From: an uncultured Methylococcaceae bacterium
GTDB taxonomy: Bacteria; Pseudomonadota; Gammaproteobacteria; Methylococcales; Methylomonadaceae
DNA: 64,000 nt
NCBI GenBank assembly: GCA_903917345.1
Contig: CAIXAE010000045.1
Location: 62,001 to 126,000 of the forward strand
Direction: 5' to 3'
Shown: one piece after another, positions 1,248-44,476 of the stretch
Layout: every line of letters begins with the position of its first letter
Numbering within the stretch: position 1 is the stretch's first letter
Made by a program: the position numbers and the translations under genes
Notes under the pieces: generated by a model
Told to the model about the DNA's origin: nothing
The model's database searches: none
The model's input: only the letters and a program-made list of their open reading frames with translations

Positions 1248-3755
1248 CTAATGCTCCACAACAATATGATCCGGCGTTAAGCCATCATGATAGCGTTGTA
1301 CCATTGTTTTATAAGCGGATTCTAAATGCTGAGTGAACAAAGGGGTGTTGTATAAAGGCGCTGTGGGTAAATGGGCTAATAATTTAGCTTTTATGGCCGC
1401 CAACTTTTCAGGATGTGTAGCTAGGTCTATAGCTAGCGCTTCATAATCAGTAGGATTTGTGGTGATTAACTCCGGTAACTTAACCGCATTTAATAAACTC
1501 GCAGCCACACGACTGGTAAAAGACTCCCCCATACACGTTAAAACAGGCAAGCCCATACGTAAAGCATCACTGGCGGTGGTATGAGCATTAAATGGTAAGG
1601 TATCAAGAAATAAATCTGCCAGTCTCAATCTATTCAAATGATCTTCAATGGATGGCATATGCGGAGCAAATATTAAGCGATCTTCTGCGACACCTTGTTT
1701 TACAGCTTCGGCTTTTAAGTTCTTAATAGCCGTTGAGTTACTTACAGGCAACCACAAAACACTGCCCTGCACACTATTTAATAATCGCATCCATATACTA
1801 AACACTTCGGGCAATATTTTATAAGTTTGGTTAAAACAACAAAATACAAATCCCTTCGATGGTAGGCCTACACTCTCTCTTGTTAAAGTACTATCGGGCA
1901 CCCTTAATTGGCTATCCGTCACCATATAACTATCAGGCATGTACACCACTTTCTCAACATAGTATTCTTTTTTATCTTCTGGGATAATCGTATTATCAGC
2001 AATAATATAATCAATATAATCTGCCCCCAAGGTACCCGGATAGCCTAAATAATTAACCTGTATAGGGGCTGCACGATAAGCAAAAATACCTGTCCTAGAA
2101 AACTGCGTATGGCCAGTTAAATCAACAATAATATCAATTTCTAATACTCTGGCGAGTAATGCTACTTCTTCATCTGAGAAGTTCTGAACATCATAAAGAT
2201 GGTCAAAACTCGCCTCAAAACGGACACGCATAAAATCTCGAATATTTAACCCTATTGAAAATGCAATGACTTCAAATTGGTTTCTATCGTGTAAGTCATA
2301 CAATTCTGCACTTAAATGAGCAACGGGGTGATTTTTAAAGTCTGCTGAAACATAAGCAATACGGATTTTATTATGCTTAGCATAAGGGGTAATGGGGGGC
2401 AACTTTGTATTAACCGGAAATTTTACATCCACATACTGTTGTGCAATTTTCTTATGTACACTTAAACGATCAGTTAATGCCTGCATCATAAAGGGATTTG
2501 AGAGATCATTATGGGTGTTAATCGCTTCTATTATTTCTTCAAGATTAATTGTAAAATCATCCCAAAAGCAGTTATACATTCTTGCACCCAATCGCAACAA
2601 GGGTAAAGTACCAAGATAAGGTGCTAACTTAAGAGCACACTCATAATCGGCAAGTGCTTCTTCATTTCGAGTCAAATTAGATAACGTTATCCCTCGATTA
2701 TAATAAGCTTCTGCATAATCGGGATCCAATTCAATTGATTTTGTGTAACTTAATTGTGCCTCTTCTAATCTTCTTAAATCGGTAAGCAAATGACCCCTAT
2801 ATAAATAGTGCTCAGGATTAGTTGGCTCTATTATAATGGCCTTATCATAACTATCTAAAGCTTGATCTGACCGCCCTAAACACCGAAGAACCTGCCCCCT
2901 GATCACTAATACTTCAACAAATTCAGCATTAAATGAAATAGCCTGATCCAAAGCTACCAGTGCTTCTTCAAACCTTAACAAAGCAAAAAATATATTACCT
3001 TGATTATAATAAGCGTCAACAGACGCAGGGTTTATTTCTATAACACGTTGATAGCAAAAAAGTGCATCATCAAAATGATTTAATGCACGTAAGATATTCC
3101 CTTTATTTGTATGTGCTTCCACATAATCGGGATTACAAGTTATAGCTTGATTATAATCATCTAATGCTATATCAAATTTTAATAATGCTGTATACGAATT
3201 ACCTCTATTAAAGTAAGCTTCTGCGAAATTAGGTTTACATCTTAAGGCTTGATTAAAGCTATCAATTGCGTCATCAAATATCTCTAAATTATTTAATACA
3301 ACACCCCGATTTAAATAAGCTTCAGCATAATCAGGATTAAGCGAAACAGCCTTATCATAACTTTCCAAGGATTTTTTAAAATCCTTTACTATTTGTAGCG
3401 TATTACCTCTGTTGAAATAAGCTTCTACGTAAACTTTATCTATTGATATAGCACAATTAAAACTGGATAAAGCTTCAGTGTATCGTTCTAATGCAGTTAA
3501 AGCATTTCCTCGATTATTTAAAGCAATAGGTTGTTGGAATGATTTTTCTAGTGATTGATCAAACCATTCAACAGCCATTGCGTAATTGCCTCTCTGCAAT
3601 GAAATAGTACCTAAATTGGTTAATAATGCTGTCTGATGAGGGAAATCAAGTAATAGTGTTTGATAGATGGACTCTGCCAAATCGAGTTGACCATCTTGAT
3701 GGAATGTTGTGGCTTGTTGTAGCAATAAATTTTGTTTAGATAAAGATGTCATCAA
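1248..3755 (-). CDS. TPR-repeat O-GlcNAc transferase-like glycosyltransferase (GT41)
   Basis: An 835-residue SPINDLY/OGT-type enzyme, expected to transfer a sugar from a nucleotide-sugar to Ser/Thr of protein acceptors in the cytoplasm. Residues about 5-400 are tandem 34-residue TPR repeats (many AYYNRG/AYFNRGN and NPDYAEA units) that would hold the acceptor. Residues about 463-825 are the GT41 catalytic region. Visible hallmarks are VSADFKNHPVAHLSAE (the His matches the conserved HP histidine of OGT), CFNQTYKILPE (conserved nucleotide-binding Lys) and DTLPFNAHTTASDALRMG. It lies next to the flagellin, FliS-like and methyltransferase genes, so flagellin glycosylation is the likely job, by inference. 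No signal peptide. About 175 bp separates it from the gene upstream, so it probably has its own promoter. Confidence 0.88.
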   Translation of the reverse strand: MMTSLSKQNLLLQQATTFHQDGQLDLAESIYQTLLLDFPHQTALLTNLGTISLQRGNYAMAVEWFDQSLEKSFQQPIALNNRGNALTALERYTEALSSFNCAISIDKVYVEAYFNRGNTLQIVKDFKKSLESYDKAVSLNPDYAEAYLNRGVVLNNLEIFDDAIDSFNQALRCKPNFAEAYFNRGNSYTALLKFDIALDDYNQAITCNPDYVEAHTNKGNILRALNHFDDALFCYQRVIEINPASVDAYYNQGNIFFALLRFEEALVALDQAISFNAEFVEVLVIRGQVLRCLGRSDQALDSYDKAIIIEPTNPEHYLYRGHLLTDLRRLEEAQLSYTKSIELDPDYAEAYYNRGITLSNLTRNEEALADYECALKLAPYLGTLPLLRLGARMYNCFWDDFTINLEEIIEAINTHNDLSNPFMMQALTDRLSVHKKIAQQYVDVKFPVNTKLPPITPYAKHNKIRIAYVSADFKNHPVAHLSAELYDLHDRNQFEVIAFSIGLNIRDFMRVRFEASFDHLYDVQNFSDEEVALLARVLEIDIIVDLTGHTQFSRTGIFAYRAAPIQVNYLGYPGTLGADYIDYIIADNTIIPEDKKEYYVEKVVYMPDSYMVTDSQLRVPDSTLTRESVGLPSKGFVFCCFNQTYKILPEVFSIWMRLLNSVQGSVLWLPVSNSTAIKNLKAEAVKQGVAEDRLIFAPHMPSIEDHLNRLRLADLFLDTLPFNAHTTASDALRMGLPVLTCMGESFTSRVAASLLNAVKLPELITTNPTDYEALAIDLATHPEKLAAIKAKLLAHLPTAPLYNTPLFTQHLESAYKTMVQRYHDGLTPDHIVVEH

Positions 3756-3930: not shown

Positions 3931-4296
3931 CTATAGCGCTTCATCTTTAACATTGTATGGAGCGATTACTGTTTTTAATGATGTCACGACTATTTCAAGA
4001 TAATCCATATTTTTAGTTTGTATTGCCCCATTAATAATTTGGATACTGTTACTAAAAATACCTTTCAATAATGTTCTATGCTGTGAATTTAACTTTTCGT
4101 TTAGGTTTTCTTGTATCCACCCTAAACCATCACAGACTTCTATTAATTTAATATGGGCATCAACAGGGGGGTAATGATTTTTTTGAATCAACTGCAACAC
4201 CATAATGACAGATTCATACCATTTCTTTTCGAAATCAGCCCCGCTGACGTTTTCATTTACGTCACCATAAGCCGCTAAAGGATTTTTTTTATACAT
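3931..4296 (-). CDS. FliS-like flagellin chaperone (divergent)
   Basis: A 121-residue, mostly helical protein. Its N-terminus, PLAAYGDVNENVSGADFEKKWYESVIMVLQ, is split here as PLAAYGDVNENV and ADFEKKWYESVIMVLQ; it resembles the FliS start (A-Y, a polar turn, then a helix with Y-x-x-x-I). The rest is predicted helices with few charged loops, as in a four-helix bundle. FliS binds the C-terminal end of flagellin in the cytoplasm and stops early polymerisation. The gene sits directly downstream of flagellin, where fliS-type genes are common. Sequence similarity alone is weak, so a different small flagellar chaperone is possible. Confidence 0.5.
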   Translation of the reverse strand: MYKKNPLAAYGDVNENVSGADFEKKWYESVIMVLQLIQKNHYPPVDAHIKLIEVCDGLGWIQENLNEKLNSQHRTLLKGIFSNSIQIINGAIQTKNMDYLEIVVTSLKTVIAPYNVKDEAL

Positions 4297-4346: not shown

Positions 4347-5279
4347 TTATCTAAAAATAGTTAATACACCTTGTGCTTCTTGGTTCATTTGGTTAATCAA
4401 GTAGTAATTCATAGACTGTTGATTATTCAAATTTTGTAACTGAATTTGCAATGCAGCAGCATCAGGTTTTTGAATACTATCAATGGTATTTTGCAAATTT
4501 TGCGAAATAGAACTGTTAGTACCATCAACCGTGGTTAACGATAACTGATCTGCAGCAACACTAGATTGATTAGTAGACACAGTATCTAATGCAGTTTTTA
4601 ATGCTGCAATAACAGCTGCCGCATCCGTCGCATTACTAATATTTGCAGCTGTAACAGCAGCAGCAGAAGCAACAGCAGCAGCAGAAGCAATAGAAGCATT
4701 AGTACCAACAGCAGCAGCAGAAGCAACAGCAGCAGCAGAAGCAACAGAAGCATGTGTTGTAATACCAGTAAGGCCTAATGATGCTATATCTGAATTTACA
4801 GTACTGATGTTTGTAATATCAGTATTAGTTAATCCCGTTTGGATCGCAAGACTTGCTGTGGTACCGTTATTTAGCAAGCCAGTACCGTCAACTTTTGCAC
4901 CTGCTGCTGTTGATTGAACTTGCAACAATAAATGTTGAAAAGTTTGATTCAACTTCGCCGCATCAGAAGATGTCATAGTTGAATCATTTGCTTTATTCGC
5001 TAAATCTTGCATTTGTGTTAACAATGAAGAAATAGAAGTTAAAGCAGTTGATGCAACATTCAACACATTTTGCGCTTTAGCAATATTGTTCTGAGCCGCA
5101 TTAAAACCCGTTACTTGAGAAGATAAACGCGTTACAACCCCTTGTTGAGCAGGATCAAGTACCTTTTTATTAGTACTTAATTGAGTTTGAATATCAGTGA
5201 TCGAACTCGCACCTTTTGATAAAGATTGTAAAATGCCAGATTGTGCAGAAGCACCAGATGTTAAAGAGTTAATAGACAT
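4347..5279 (-). CDS. fliC: flagellin, atypical
   Basis: A 310-residue filament protein exported by the flagellar type III system. The N-terminal D0/D1 coiled region is recognisable: QTQLSTNKKVLDPAQQ, then AQNNIAKAQNVLNVASTAL and ISSLLTQMQDLANKAND, matching the flagellin pattern of LSTG-K-x...A, an I-x-x-A helix and M-x-x-LA-x-A. The C-terminal helix ends in NQMNQEAQGVLTIFR. The opening MSINSLTSGASAQSGILQSL differs from the usual INTN-x-x-A-x-x-AQ start. The middle is short and alanine-rich (ASAAAV repeats), with no large D2/D3 domain. Clustered Ser/Thr in the middle could be glycosylated by the neighbouring GT41 enzyme. A possible sigma-28 promoter lies about 90-115 bp upstream. Confidence 0.82.
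   Translation of the reverse strand: MSINSLTSGASAQSGILQSLSKGASSITDIQTQLSTNKKVLDPAQQGVVTRLSSQVTGFNAAQNNIAKAQNVLNVASTALTSISSLLTQMQDLANKANDSTMTSSDAAKLNQTFQHLLLQVQSTAAGAKVDGTGLLNNGTTASLAIQTGLTNTDITNISTVNSDIASLGLTGITTHASVASAAAVASAAAVGTNASIASAAAVASAAAVTAANISNATDAAAVIAALKTALDTVSTNQSSVAADQLSLTTVDGTNSSISQNLQNTIDSIQKPDAAALQIQLQNLNNQQSMNYYLINQMNQEAQGVLTIFR
4653..4742 (-). repeat. in-frame 18-bp repeat array inside flagellin
   Basis: Five 18-bp units lie end to end. Units 1, 2, 4 and 5 (starting 4653, 4671, 4707, 4725) are identical copies of AACAGCAGCAGCAGAAGC; unit 3 (4689-4706) is diverged. On the coding strand each copy gives A-S-A-A-A-V. The unit length is a multiple of three, so copy-number changes keep the reading frame and change only the length of the exposed middle of flagellin. 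Confidence 0.9.
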
Positions 5280-5493: not shown

Positions 5494-5566
5494 ACTTATT
5501 CTAATAATAGAAACTTATATCTATGGCGGTAAACTTTAGTCTTTATAACAGATTGGATTGATAAAA

Positions 5567-6073
5567 ATGAAGCTGCATATTGGTGGTGAAACTATAAAAG
5601 AAGGCTGGAAGATTCTAAACATCTCTCAAAAACCTGGCGTTGATTATATGGGTGACATTAGTGACTTATCAATATTTGATGATGATAGTTTTAGTGAAAT
5701 CTATGCGAGTCATGTATTTGAGCATGTACCCCAAGCTAATGTATTAGAGACACTTAAAGGGATAAGACGTATTTTAAAACCCGAAGGTAAGTTTTATGTT
5801 TCTGTCCCAGATTTAGATGTGCTTTGTCATACATTTATCAGCCCTATCGCGTCTTTTGATACTAAATTTCATGTCATGCGAATGATGTTTGGTGGACAAA
5901 CCGATCCCCATGATTTTCATTTCTTTGGTTGGAATAAACAGTTTTTGTTTGAATTTTTAATTCAAGCTGGTTTTACCGACGCACAACAAGTGGAATCTTT
6001 CGGTTTATTTAATGATACGAGTGACTACAAACCTTATGGCTTTAACATCAGCCTTAATGTAATTGCTTGGTAG
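5567..6073 (+). CDS. class I SAM-dependent methyltransferase
   Basis: A 168-residue cytoplasmic methyltransferase of the type-11 group. It has a shortened N-terminus (KLHIGGETIKEGWKILNI), then DYMGDISDLSIFDDDSFSEI and YASHVFEHVPQANVLETLKG, which match the motif where the S-adenosylmethionine pocket and post-II helix meet, and LKPEGKFYVSVPDLDVL (motif III strand). Such small enzymes often act on sugars in surface-glycan loci. Its place beside flagellin and a protein glycosyltransferase suggests methylation of the flagellin glycan, by inference. I chose ATG 5567 over an in-frame TTG at 5558 because the family begins MKLHIGG-like. Confidence 0.75.
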   Translation: MKLHIGGETIKEGWKILNISQKPGVDYMGDISDLSIFDDDSFSEIYASHVFEHVPQANVLETLKGIRRILKPEGKFYVSVPDLDVLCHTFISPIASFDTKFHVMRMMFGGQTDPHDFHFFGWNKQFLFEFLIQAGFTDAQQVESFGLFNDTSDYKPYGFNISLNVIAW

Positions 6074-6391: not shown

Positions 6392-6967
6392 TTACGAAAA
6401 AAACTTACCTAATAAGCCTTTGGGTTTTGGGCGCTGTTGTTCAATAAGGTTGGCCAGTGCAGTGCCTTTAGTGGCGTATTTTTCTACTTCACTAGAGACT
6501 AGTTTTGAGTTTCTGTCATAGATCTCTAATAAATTAAATAACAGACTGTCTATTAAAGACTTTAATTGGGGCAATACTAGGCCTTGATTTCGGTAGGTGA
6601 GTCCTTTAATAAGACCAGAAACTAATATTTCTGTGTACTGTGCATCCGCTGATATTTTGCAGGTGTTTAAAGACTCCAGTCTTTCTAAGCCATTAATAAG
6701 ATCATTGGAGGCGGAGTAAGCTGCATTCTTGTTTCTGCCCTGCTTAATAAAAATTGCATCTGCCGCATCAAAATACAAGCCAGACAGGGCTTTTATACAG
6801 GCAATGGCTGTCAAGCTGTCTTCTGAACTAGTACCAAAACTGGCTTTACTAATTACCTCTTTATAGTGATCTTCATCCACATTAATGGTGCTGCATGAAT
6901 GACAGACAAAAGTATGTAAAGGAGGGGTTTTGGGTGATGTCTCCCCACAATTACCACAGATATTCAT
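6392..6967 (-). CDS. zinc-ribbon protein of unknown function
   Basis: A 191-residue protein that I do not recognise. The N-terminus is a two-knuckle zinc ribbon, CGNCG (residues 4-8) and CHSC (about 22-25). The rest is predicted helical with no membrane segment; it ends in a basic KPKGLLGKFFS tail. It lies 52 bp after flgJ on the same strand, where flgK and flgL would usually follow in this gene order, so it may belong to the flgB-J transcript. Zinc-ribbon-plus-helix proteins of this size are often adaptors or regulators, but nothing in the sequence fixes a role. Confidence 0.65.
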   Translation of the reverse strand: MNICGNCGETSPKTPPLHTFVCHSCSTINVDEDHYKEVISKASFGTSSEDSLTAIACIKALSGLYFDAADAIFIKQGRNKNAAYSASNDLINGLERLESLNTCKISADAQYTEILVSGLIKGLTYRNQGLVLPQLKSLIDSLLFNLLEIYDRNSKLVSSEVEKYATKGTALANLIEQQRPKPKGLLGKFFS

Positions 6968-9693: not shown

Positions 9694-10479
9694 CTAGAGT
9701 TGTGACAATGTTTGCAACATTTGGTCAGAAGTGGTGACTGCTTTACTGTTAATCTCATAAGAGCGTTGTGCTTGAATCATATTGGTCATTTCTTCAACCA
9801 CGTTAACGTTAGATGTTTCTACGTACTTTTGATTTAATGAGCCTAAGCCATTGGTTGTGGGTTGACCCGTTATAGGGGCGCCCGAAGCGCTAGTCTCAAC
9901 ATATAGATTTTCTCCTTTGGCCTCTAATCCAGCTGGATTAATAAAACTAGCTATATCGATCGTGCCAACATTACTTGTTGTGGGAGGATTACCAGGTTGT
10001 GTAACGGTAACAACGCCATCACTGCCAATCGTTAAACTTTGTGCATCTGCGGGGATAGGGATGGAGGGTTGTAACTGATAACCACTGGATGTCACTAAAT
10101 ACCCTTGGTTATCCAATTGAAACTCACCATCACGGGTATAAGCCGTAGAACCATCTGGCATTAATATCTGGAAAAATCCAATACCTTGTATAGCAACGTC
10201 TTTATCATTACCGGTTTGTTGTAAATTACCTTGGGTAAATAAGCGCTCTGCAGCGACTGGCTTAACGCCGGTACCTAATTGCAAGCCTGATGGTAATTGT
10301 GTTTGCTGAGAAGACTGCCCTCCCGGTTGTCTTACATTTTGATAAAGCAAATCTTCAAATACCGCCCGAGAACGTTTAAACCCCGTGGTATTAACGTTAG
10401 CTAAGTTATTGGTTATAACATCTAACTGGGTTTGCATTGCATCTAAACCCGTTTTAGCAATTAATAAAGAACGTATCAT
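9694..10479 (-). CDS. flgG: distal rod protein FlgG
   Basis: A 261-residue axial protein of the distal rod, exported by the flagellar type III system. N-terminal [20 protein letters not shown] and [13 protein letters not shown], plus C-terminal [19 protein letters not shown] and ending in QMLQTLSQL, are the standard rod/hook terminal helices. Length equals that of typical FlgG. Confidence 0.97.
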
Positions 10480-11272: not shown

Positions 11273-12442
11273 TTAATGACCTAATTGTGAAATTTCTTGT
11301 AATATTTGGCTTTGCGTATTGATCACTTGTGACTCTGCCTGGAACGCACGTTGTGCAGATAATAAATCAACCATTGCCGCTGTCGTGTCCACATTAGAAC
11401 CTTCTGTAGCACCGACCTGTATAGTACCTGCCCCCTTATCTCCGCCAGGATAAGTGGCAGTGGGCGTTCCAGAAGCCATACTTTCTGCCCACTGATTGAC
11501 GCCAACCGGCTTTAAGCCTGTCTCGAAGGGGAATACATAAACACCCAACTTTAGATTCATTGGAATAGATACAGGCTGATTATTGATAACATAACTTGGC
11601 GTAATGGTGCCATCAGTGCCTACCGTAACACTCGCCATTGCAGGTGTTGAATAACCATCAGCTGTAGAAATTGCAGTAAATGGACCTTTAGTTTGAGTTG
11701 GATTATCGAAAGTAAAAGTCACTCCAGGGGCACCTGCAAGCGTAATATCAACAGTAGGATTACCCAGACTATCTTTTGTTACCCCTGTTTTACTGACACC
11801 TGTACCTGTAGCCGATAAAGCACCCTTAGCGTCATAACTTAAACTGGCATCAAGGGTTGTAGTTGCCGGAGTAGCCGAGTTAGCACTGTATATATTCCAA
11901 CCCGCTGTTGTTTTTACATAGTAACTAGTCACCGTTGAGGCTGTTCCAGTTGCGTCGTACACTTTAGTCGTTGTTGATTCGTTGTAAGATGTATCGTCAG
12001 TAGGGCTGAATGTTGTTGTTTTAGGCACATCAGCACTCGAGTCTAAATTAAGCGTCATAGTAGCTTTGGTAGATGCCTTGGGTGAAACACTTGGCGGAAT
12101 TGATATAGGTGTACCTGTCGAACTCTGAACAATATTACCTTCACTATCCGTTAAATTATTATTAGCATCCAACTGAAAACGTCCATCTCGCGTATAAAGT
12201 GACTGCCCACTGGCCGATTGAACTTTAAAAAAACCCTTCCCTTCTATAGCGACATCTAAAGGATTATTATCAACCGTAATACCTCCTTGTTTAAAATTTT
12301 GAACGGAAGTGGTTTGACCTAATATCTCTTGAAAGCTAGTGCTTTTATAACCAATGGTGTTTTGGTTTGATATATTTTTGCCTAATAGCGTCAATTTTGA
12401 ATACGCTGCCGTGATTGCTGATGTATCTATACTCATACCCAT
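11273..12442 (-). CDS. flgE: flagellar hook protein FlgE
   Basis: A 389-residue hook subunit. It has the axial-protein start (YSKLTLLGKNISNQNTIGYK), a Thr/Ser-rich surface domain in the middle and the ending TTAAMVDLLSAQRAFQAESQ. Length is close to enteric FlgE (about 400), so it carries no large insertion. The hook-length control protein FliK and hook-filament proteins FlgK/FlgL are not nearby. Confidence 0.96.
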   Translation of the reverse strand: MGMSIDTSAITAAYSKLTLLGKNISNQNTIGYKSTSFQEILGQTTSVQNFKQGGITVDNNPLDVAIEGKGFFKVQSASGQSLYTRDGRFQLDANNNLTDSEGNIVQSSTGTPISIPPSVSPKASTKATMTLNLDSSADVPKTTTFSPTDDTSYNESTTTKVYDATGTASTVTSYYVKTTAGWNIYSANSATPATTTLDASLSYDAKGALSATGTGVSKTGVTKDSLGNPTVDITLAGAPGVTFTFDNPTQTKGPFTAISTADGYSTPAMASVTVGTDGTITPSYVINNQPVSIPMNLKLGVYVFPFETGLKPVGVNQWAESMASGTPTATYPGGDKGAGTIQVGATEGSNVDTTAAMVDLLSAQRAFQAESQVINTQSQILQEISQLGH

Positions 12443-41959: not shown

Positions 41960-44476
41960 ATGGTTCAATTTTATAAGTACAAAAATATTATTTTTCCAGC
42001 CTGCCAATACATAATTATTGTATTCGCTTATGGTCTAATGGCTATTGCGACATTAAGATTGTTTGGCACACTCCCCATCCTGTTCTTACCTGCTGGTTTT
42101 GCTCTTGCCGTTACTTTAATTGGTGGAAGAAAATATGTTGGAGCAATATTTCTCAGTGCCCTCTTAGTAAACCTGAAACTTAATGAATCTTTTGCAATAA
42201 GCATTGCACTTGCTGTTTTTAGTGCTTTTGCCCCTGTACTCATTAGCTACCTTATTCAACTCTATCTTCGTAATAAAGAGCAGATTTTTGGCATACAGTC
42301 ATTCTCCCCAATATTAGTCATTAGCTGTGCAGCTTTAGGGCTAGTGATTACAGCGTTCCTCTCTAGTATTTTTTTATACTTGAGTGGACAATTACATCAT
42401 CAATACTTACTCTCTTATATTGTAAAATATTGGATGGGAGATATTTTAGGCGTAATGCTGATTACACCTTTATCAATTTCATTATGGGATCTTTTCAACG
42501 GCCCTCCTATTAAACTTTCTGTTTCAAATAGCCTAGAGTCTTTTGCTGTTTTAAGCCTCTCTTTTTTAATATCTTCATCGGTTTTTTTTAATATTGAGCC
42601 CAAACCTATCAGTAATGCTTATTGGTTATTTGCTCTTCTATGTTGGAGTGTAATAAGACTACAAAGATTAAACACGTTATTAGTCATTTTTACAGTTGTC
42701 CTAATGGGCTCCATAGCAACCTTTTACAAAGTTGGCTTCTTTTACCCAGCCACAAATATTGGGATTAATGACACGTCTATCGGGTTATCATCCTTTTGGT
42801 CTTTTGCATTCATCTACAGTAGTCTGGGAAATATTCTTAGTGATGTAGTAACGGAATACAAAATGCAGTCAACCCATTTACACGATCAAAACTCAGAACT
42901 ATATCAAGCTAATATAAAGATTAATGAACAGTTTGATAGATCCCAAGATCAATTCACTGCCATGATTGATAATTTGCCATTAGCCATGTGGTATAAGGAT
43001 AGAGATGGTCATCTACTAGCTGCCAATCAAGCGTTACTTAACAAATTAGGTATTGATAACTTTGCCGTAATATTTGGTAGAAACAACGCCGAGATTTTTT
43101 CGAAAACTGTAGCTAAAACTATCAATGAAGAAGAAATTGATGTTTTACTCAGTGGTAAAGAAAGAACCTTTGAAAAAGTGACTGAACAAAATGGACAGAT
43201 AAATTACCATGAAGTCCACTTATCGCCAGTTATTAATTCTCAGGGCGTTGTAACGGGTACGGTTGGATATCATCTAGATACCACGGAGAAAAAACTACAA
43301 GAAATTTTTGTAAAACAAGCCAAAGAAAAGGCTGAACAATTGAACATAGCAAAGAGCCAGTTCTTAGCTAATATGTCACATGAAATTAGAACCCCCATGA
43401 ATGGCGTCATTGGTTTATCAAAATTAGCCTTAGAAAGCAGTAATGTATTAGAAATAAAACAATTAGTTCAAAGAATCAATCAATCTTCCGAGAACTTAAT
43501 GTCAATCTTAAATGACATACTAGATTTGTCAAAAATTGAAGATACTGGGTTTTCATTAAACCTTAAAGATTTTTCTATTAACGAGTTGTTAAAACCACTC
43601 ACTGATCTTTTTACTCTAACAGCTCAACAGTCGGGTATATCTTTTAAGATTATTTGTGATGAACAGATCAAACAACACATTTGGGGTGATGAATTAAGAC
43701 TAAGACAAATTTTGGTCAATTTATTGGGAAACGCCTTTAAGTTTACTGAGCAAGGTGAAGTTATATTGACTATTAATGCTGTACACACTACTCATAGCCA
43801 TACCAATCATGTCAGGTTAAGATTCGCAGTCTCAGATACAGGTGTTGGTTTATCACCCGAACAAACAAGTTTTATATTTGATCGCTTTACTCAAGCTGAC
43901 ACCTCAACTACACGACGTTTTGGTGGATCAGACTTAGGGTTAAGCATCTCTCAGGAATTAGTTCGAGCAATGGGTGGAGAAATAAAAGTAGAAAGTAGTC
44001 TTGGTTTAGGATCAGTATTTAGCTTTGAAATTGACTTTAATACCATTGACCCTTCAGCTTCCAACTTAATAGTTAATAATGATTCTGGCTTAAGTTCAGT
44101 CGAAAACTTGCAAGCCAAACGTATATTAGTTGTTGAAGACGACAAGATAAATCAATTAGTCACTGGTTTATTCTTAAAGAAATTAAATATTGAATACGAA
44201 ATTGCTGAAAATGGGCTGATCGCAATTGATTGCATTAAGAACAATACCTACGACCTCATTCTAATGGATGTACAGATGCCATTAATGGGTGGTATTGAAG
44301 CTGCCCAACATATTCGTCAATTTGATGAATATAAAACACTACCCATCATCGCAATGAGCGCAGGTGTTATGTTAGAAGAGAAACAAGCCTGTCAGGATGC
44401 CGGTATGAATGGATTCGTACCAAAACCAACTAATATTGAGCAACTTACATCTGAACTTGTGAGACTGCTTCAATAA
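41960..44476 (+). CDS. MASE1 hybrid sensor histidine kinase with altered G2 box
   Basis: An 838-residue membrane kinase. Residues about 10-295 hold eight hydrophobic helices of the MASE1 type (ATLRLFGTLPILFLPAGFAL). Then PAS about 330-450 (MWYKDRDGHLLAANQALLNK), HisKA about 465-530 (FLANMSHEIRTPMNGVIG), HATPase 575-695 (LVNLLGNAFKFTEQ, DTGVGL, FDRFTQADTS) and receiver 715-838 (LVVEDDKINQ, LMDVQMPLMGG). The G2 nucleotide motif reads GGSDLGLS where the family and both other hybrid kinases here have GG[ST]GLGL. That Gly-to-Asp change may weaken ATP binding. No regulator is adjacent. Confidence 0.9.
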   Translation: MVQFYKYKNIIFPACQYIIIVFAYGLMAIATLRLFGTLPILFLPAGFALAVTLIGGRKYVGAIFLSALLVNLKLNESFAISIALAVFSAFAPVLISYLIQLYLRNKEQIFGIQSFSPILVISCAALGLVITAFLSSIFLYLSGQLHHQYLLSYIVKYWMGDILGVMLITPLSISLWDLFNGPPIKLSVSNSLESFAVLSLSFLISSSVFFNIEPKPISNAYWLFALLCWSVIRLQRLNTLLVIFTVVLMGSIATFYKVGFFYPATNIGINDTSIGLSSFWSFAFIYSSLGNILSDVVTEYKMQSTHLHDQNSELYQANIKINEQFDRSQDQFTAMIDNLPLAMWYKDRDGHLLAANQALLNKLGIDNFAVIFGRNNAEIFSKTVAKTINEEEIDVLLSGKERTFEKVTEQNGQINYHEVHLSPVINSQGVVTGTVGYHLDTTEKKLQEIFVKQAKEKAEQLNIAKSQFLANMSHEIRTPMNGVIGLSKLALESSNVLEIKQLVQRINQSSENLMSILNDILDLSKIEDTGFSLNLKDFSINELLKPLTDLFTLTAQQSGISFKIICDEQIKQHIWGDELRLRQILVNLLGNAFKFTEQGEVILTINAVHTTHSHTNHVRLRFAVSDTGVGLSPEQTSFIFDRFTQADTSTTRRFGGSDLGLSISQELVRAMGGEIKVESSLGLGSVFSFEIDFNTIDPSASNLIVNNDSGLSSVENLQAKRILVVEDDKINQLVTGLFLKKLNIEYEIAENGLIAIDCIKNNTYDLILMDVQMPLMGGIEAAQHIRQFDEYKTLPIIAMSAGVMLEEKQACQDAGMNGFVPKPTNIEQLTSELVRLLQ

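Follow-up and report, generated by a model that had tools for sequence, protein, structure and literature searches.

It is likely, in our view, that the short tandem array in the flagellin gene described here represents a young repeat expansion, in frame and specific to its lineage, lodged in a surface slot of the protein at the position of the D2/D3 domains. In the window (by which we mean the whole 64-kb stretch of DNA analysed), the gene occupies 4347–5279 on the minus strand and encodes a 310-aa protein with a D0/D1 core and a repeat loop. When both strands of the window are searched for exact copies of the 18-base unit, the hits are confined to starts at 4653, 4671, 4707 and 4725; these four units encode ASAAAV and are identical as DNA. 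An earlier note had reported an in-frame 18-bp array in flagellin at 4653–4742, built of four identical units and a diverged one in the order 2-1-2, and both the exact copies and Tandem Repeats Finder (TRF) bear this out, except that the diverged unit (4689–4706) encodes GTNASI and not, as had been claimed for all units, ASAAAV. A sixth related unit, TTHASV at 4743–4760, extends the array, and residues 174–209 read, in coding-strand order, TTHASV, ASAAAV, ASAAAV, GTNASI, ASAAAV, ASAAAV. The array is best described as two 54-bp superunits on the minus strand, one at 4707–4760 (TTHASV-ASAAAV-ASAAAV) and one at 4653–4706 (GTNASI-ASAAAV-ASAAAV), which have 48 of 54 bases in common and a longest exact run of 38 bp. 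TRF places it at 4653–4752 with period 18, 5.6 copies and a score of 151, the highest of its 8 rows for the window (the second row is the same array again at period 9), and what is found is thus a set of tandem, near-identical units in frame, as one would look for in a variable repeat.

The codons of the array are strikingly uniform. All 18 Ala codons among its 36 codons are GCT, whereas the remainder of the gene uses 16 GCA, 9 GCG and 10 GCT, and every Ser is TCT and every Val GTT, with mixed codons in the rest of the gene. When codons were shuffled across the whole gene, or redrawn synonymously, the observed period-18 score was reached in 0 of 20,000 trials in either case, and shuffling within the array alone reached it in 4 of 20,000, since the array contains so few codon types. 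These controls therefore place the likeness of the units at the level of DNA and not just of protein constraint, and that likeness is probably recent. In our proposed history the 18-bp unit would have multiplied and a 54-bp X-U-U block (where X is TTHASV or GTNASI and U is ASAAAV) would seemingly have been duplicated. Expansion is favoured by the four identical units with their uniform codons and by the exact run that the superunits share. A single superunit duplication fits less easily, given that the X units have only 12 of 18 bases in common and differ at 6, while the U units are identical; after one such event, either U would have had to become homogenised or X to diverge.

That the gene encodes a flagellin, as the earlier note had called it, is supported by profile searches. 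Flagellin_N scores 39 bits against a curated cut-off of 26.6, and a profile of the protein's own family, searched against solved sequences at E 0.01, gave 51 distinct matches, every one named flagellin, flagellin homolog, FliC or flagella (a flagellin–FliD fusion is among them), the best being 273-aa Caulobacter-type flagellins (9cem, FljL, E 2.9e-20). All NCBIfam models stay below their cut-offs: flagellin equivalogs give at best 31 bits against 423, and the highest scorer, a hook-associated-protein-3 model, 37.9 bits against 337. Flagellin_C is matched at E 0.01 or better by 3 of 7 family members, the window protein not being one of them. The Flagellin_N hit, the solved matches and the sub-cut-off NCBIfam scores together mark the 310-aa protein, by its profiles, as a divergent flagellin. 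Two other identities were considered and set aside, namely FlgL (TIGR02550 gives 25.8 bits against a cut-off of 127.2, and 293.9 for the FlgL of the control genome G005) and, at 310 aa, a giant flagellin of over 1000 aa. In the window genome (G000; 2.48 Mb in 45 contigs, 99.8% complete) it is a single copy, the sole Flagellin_N protein over cut-off. Its AlphaFold model has a mean pLDDT of 46, with low-confidence helices over residues 178–189 and 193–212, and its quality is too low to locate the loop. Plasmid records hold no relative, and when a draw of 369 genomes of the class was searched strictly, its own genome alone came back. Among 237 genomes of the family, best matches run from E 8e-138 to 1.5e-61 in seven genomes and the next genome lies at 1.1e-18; at E 1e-5, 102 of the 237 match, and those beyond the seven were taken as other flagellin types. 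Given the class draw and this gap in E-values, the flagellin type looks restricted in distribution.

Comparison with its closest homologues shows where the array sits. Aligned with four 269-aa homologues (two copies in G008, one in G029 and one in G033; core identity 70–79%), the window protein carries a 39-residue insertion and otherwise matches throughout, and three long homologues, with core identities of 50–53%, have 375 aa (G080), 486 aa (G002) and 497 aa (G011). The slot measures 44 residues in the short homologues, 83 in the window protein and 155, 267 and 277 in G080, G002 and G011, which relative to the short homologues (+0) amounts to +39, +111, +223 and +233. It would begin after the last D1 segment of the N-terminal part and end where the C-terminal D1 helix starts. 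When the family profile is compared by hhalign with the 475-aa flagellin of G005, a canonical one (probability 97.5%, residues 15–310 against 12–475, the last residue), the array falls within the gap that the outer region of the latter occupies. D2 and D3 are the outer domains of Salmonella-type flagellins and stand in this same slot. The earlier note had placed the array in the exposed part of flagellin; the array does fall in the D2/D3 slot, and exposure of the loop is what flagellin architecture, in the accessible part of PMC8306008, would lead us to expect. That the outer region varies or has grown by duplication is described in the accessible parts of PMC8306008 and PMC6248924.

Neither ASAAAV nor the exact 18-base unit occurs in any of the seven other homologous proteins or genes (0 of 7, the best match being 14 of 18 bases), so what the relatives display is not an invariant copy number but the lack of the unit. 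In other members of the clade the same slot appears to be filled with Ala-rich low-complexity sequence. The slot of G002 has tandem repeats of its own (21 bp, 3.1–3.2 copies), the G011 gene has weak tandem repeats only, and the G080 insert has none at score 40, and repeat expansion is therefore not evident in every insert. Ala, Ser, Thr and Val together make up 62–70% of the slot in the three long homologues and already 61–70% in the four short ones, so that composition alone says little. In a tree of the core, short and long types are parted by a fully supported branch (100/100) with the window protein among the short, and one gain of the array on the window lineage would accordingly be the simplest history. 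The array may instead be older and have been lost in other lineages, a reading for which the unresolved branching order inside the short group leaves room.

On the reading that we prefer, a young expansion, changes in multiples of three bases would be tolerated in the slot because it lies outside the filament core, and the likely effect would be a surface loop longer by about 39 residues, weakly structured or helical. This overlaps with the idea of neutral drift, in which a GCT-rich repeat simply grew where length is free and has no functional effect, and to which we would give somewhat less than an even chance. The low complexity of the array, its single codon type and its lack in the homologues compared are all consistent with drift, which on its own nevertheless does not account for an Ala+Ser+Thr+Val content of 61–70% in the slot of all eight proteins. 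We consider it unlikely that the array is a contingency locus, whose copy number would change often by slippage or recombination to give loops of several lengths, and so a changing filament surface, within a population, serving phage escape or adhesion. Perfect identity of four units and uniform third positions do suggest recent turnover, and recombination between the copies of the 38-bp exact run, spaced 54 bp apart, could add or remove 18 residues in frame; yet there are just four perfect units, arranged in pairs, and the homologues lack the unit altogether where one would look for other copy numbers.

A further possibility, put forward in the earlier note, is that the array spaces glycans. 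Downstream of the window flagellin come a gene for a 121-aa protein and then, at 1248–3755 on the minus strand, one for an 835-aa protein with TPR repeats and an OGT-like glycosyltransferase family 41 domain (Glyco_transf_41 268 bits; human OGT 414 bits), which by its domains and its place is a candidate flagellin O-glycosyltransferase. The array with TTHASV included holds 6 Ser and 3 Thr, and a Ser every six positions might serve as acceptor for this adjacent transferase, with the repeat setting the spacing; in Caulobacter, FlmG, an OGT with a flagellin-binding TPR region, glycosylates flagellins (accessible part of PMC7591256). The same arrangement of flagellin, 121-aa gene and, further downstream, TPR-GT41 gene (cut by contig ends) recurs at three other short-type loci (G008 contig C199, G029 and G033), and these have no array. 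In the fetched flanks of the long-type loci of G002, G011 and G080 and of the second G008 copy, no TPR-GT41 gene was seen in frame lists inspected by eye, and the association therefore belongs to the short flagellin type and not to the array. Since short-homologue slots already hold 15–21 Ser/Thr in 44 residues, we regard a glycan-spacing role as rather improbable, and this part of the earlier interpretation is weakened. In favour of other parts of it, the gene is a flagellin by sequence, and the array lies in frame in the D2/D3 slot, whose length differs between species. An assembly artefact of the repeat is hardly credible, even in a draft of 45 contigs, for an ordinary short read is longer than the 108-bp array, which is anchored by its diverged units and lies with frame intact inside a contig of 152,914 bases.

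The setting of the gene is of at least equal interest. In G005 the canonical order is flgI-flgJ-flgK-flgL, pilin-type genes and then flagellin-flaG-fliD-fliS-fliT (FlgJ, FlgK, FlgL, FlaG, FliD, FliS and FliT assigned by profile, the others by eye). The flgJ of the window genome (7020–7994, minus strand; Rod-binding and Glucosaminidase domains) is followed not by flgK and flgL, as in G005, but by a 191-aa protein of unplaced family (6392–6967, minus strand; no Pfam family over cut-off and no NCBIfam model at E 0.1), a methyltransferase-like gene divergent from flagellin (5558–6073, plus strand; Methyltransf_11, 33 bits) and then flagellin. A similar methyltransferase-like gene was seen by eye, in frame lists, beside the G033 homologue. 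On the contig that carries flagellin, 187 bases separate flaG (61.6 bits) from the next gene, fliT (47.5 bits; the pair at C45:35429-36344), a gap too small for a gene of any size, and fliD and fliS are thus absent from between them at this locus, unlike in G005. This gene order agrees with a loss of flgKL and fliD. FliT is the chaperone of FliD, and its gene has been kept in the window genome although fliD is absent over cut-off. A 126-aa protein encoded divergently from flaG (C45:34781-35161) starts MSISSVSNLAS and belongs to no family over cut-off; that it might be a missing axial protein is a guess. The Flg_hook domain of the FliK C-terminus occurs in two proteins encoded in the same flagellar region (C45:36350-37315 and 43223-44239).

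A survey of 35 genomes of the genus with family profiles at cut-off extends the pattern. Of these, 7 have FliD_N, 5 have FlgK, 11 Flagellin_N and 4 FlgN, and the window flagellin type occurs in six: the window genome, G002, G008, G011, G029 and G033. All but the last of these (97–100% complete and at most 2% contaminated, with G011 a single 4.8-Mb contig) lack matches over cut-off to FliD_N, FlgK and FlgN, and their only Flagellin_N proteins at that level are of the window type (that is, no FlgL). G033 (480 contigs, 4% contamination) has both gene sets, and represents either two flagellar systems or a mixed bin. Below cut-off, the window genome gives a best FliD_N match of 13.9 bits (of 24.8 needed; E 0.155), no FliD_C match at E 10, and 41.4 of 170.75 bits for FlgK, whose weak matches fall on flgG (9694–10479), flgE (11273–12442) and a 147-aa unclassified frame. 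FliE, FliF, FliK, FlhB, FlhA, FlgA, FlgD, FlgE, FlgF, FlgG, FlgH, FlgI and FlgJ are all present. The profiles do work in this genus, since FliD and FlgK, along with two or more Flagellin_N proteins, are found in each of G005, G009, G027 and G032. Absence is nonetheless an unreliable sign in draft genomes: FlgK is missing from G034 (84% complete), which has FliD and flagellin, G001 (99% complete) has FliD and neither flagellin nor FlgK, and G009 has FlgK without FlgN. A 678-aa open frame that matches FliD_N once, and weakly a second time, was also observed in G001 (C121), G032 (C149) and G033 (C187). A further point against taking the absences as real comes from the accessible part of PMC6956133, a study that apparently does not include the genomes examined here: Methylospira mobilis is reported to have fliKTSD and flgLK, and other motile gammaproteobacterial methanotrophs most motility genes.

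The 121-aa protein (3931–4296, minus strand) is a probable flagellin chaperone, to judge from its predicted fold and its co-occurrence with flagellin. It occurs in 7 of 311 genomes of the order, the same seven that carry the window flagellin type among the 237 family genomes (the 74 order genomes outside the family being covered for flagellin just where they fell in the class draw). Its predicted model has a mean pLDDT of 78, and the first 10 rows of a Foldseek search are all flagellar chaperones (TMq 0.50–0.77), with a best E no better than about 0.05; a VIA search likewise returns flagellar chaperones in its first 10 rows (Z 11.3–14.3, the next at 10.9), on a scale where relative-less helical bundles typically reach a best Z of 14. 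By sequence no relation to FliS emerged: at E 10 Pfam assigns no family to the window protein, and the 4 Pfam families matched by any of the 7 members do not include FliS (the same library gives the FliS of G005 124.8 bits). No alignment to a canonical FliS was obtained (probability 0.2%), and no solved relative was found, the best E of 0.06 being taken as chance.

A simple reading of these gene contents is a loss of flgKL and fliD accompanied by a new flagellin and a new chaperone. Alternatively, the junction and cap proteins may be present and extremely diverged, or the flagellar system may no longer be making a filament. We would go further only tentatively, with a proposal that we think has perhaps one chance in three of being right as a whole: in these presumed methanotrophs a filament of minimal flagellin would sit directly on the hook, without FlgK, FlgL or FliD and with a new FliS-like chaperone, and the D2/D3 slot of this relaxed filament would be in the course of being refilled from scratch by codon-repeat expansion, with the window array as its youngest stage. 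If real, a flagellum that does without junction and cap proteins would be a novelty, but this is unproven. Such proteins are regarded as necessary: in the accessible part of PMC5072837 flagella are not formed without FliD, and modelling in that of PMC12221982 points to a need for FlgK at the joint of hook and filament. Near-complete genomes with a flagellin and without FlgK, FlgL and FliD over cut-off would directly test the need for junction and cap proteins.

The array alone is of modest novelty, and it is its genomic setting that deserves attention. Among the matches listed in our literature search, which covered few subscription papers, there was neither a comparable codon-repeat locus in a flagellin nor a naturally occurring flagellum that lacks FlgK, FlgL and FliD. 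In addition, flagellin outer domains vary widely from one bacterium to another and their origin is mostly inferred; the related proteins compared here show the slot empty, newly occupied by a repeat, and filled with long low-complexity sequence. Flagellins of the Caulobacter FljK/FljL type consist of D0/D1 only, without outer domains, and at 273 aa they resemble the short array-less homologues of 269 aa; the window flagellin differs from them in its single copy, its repeat-built loop and a genome with no FlgK, FlgL or FliD over cut-off. With FlmG-type transferases the 835-aa protein shares a TPR region and an OGT-type domain, a likeness of domain make-up, and here it is encoded close to flagellin. 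The 121-aa protein is like FliS in predicted fold and in its place beside flagellin, with no sequence relation found. The giant flagellins of Bermanella and Oleibacter, as presented in the accessible part of PMC6248924, have likewise grown their outer region at D2/D3 by internal duplication and new inserts; the difference is one of scale, with domain-sized duplications and proteins of over 1000 aa in those genera, and 18-bp units within a 39-residue insertion here.
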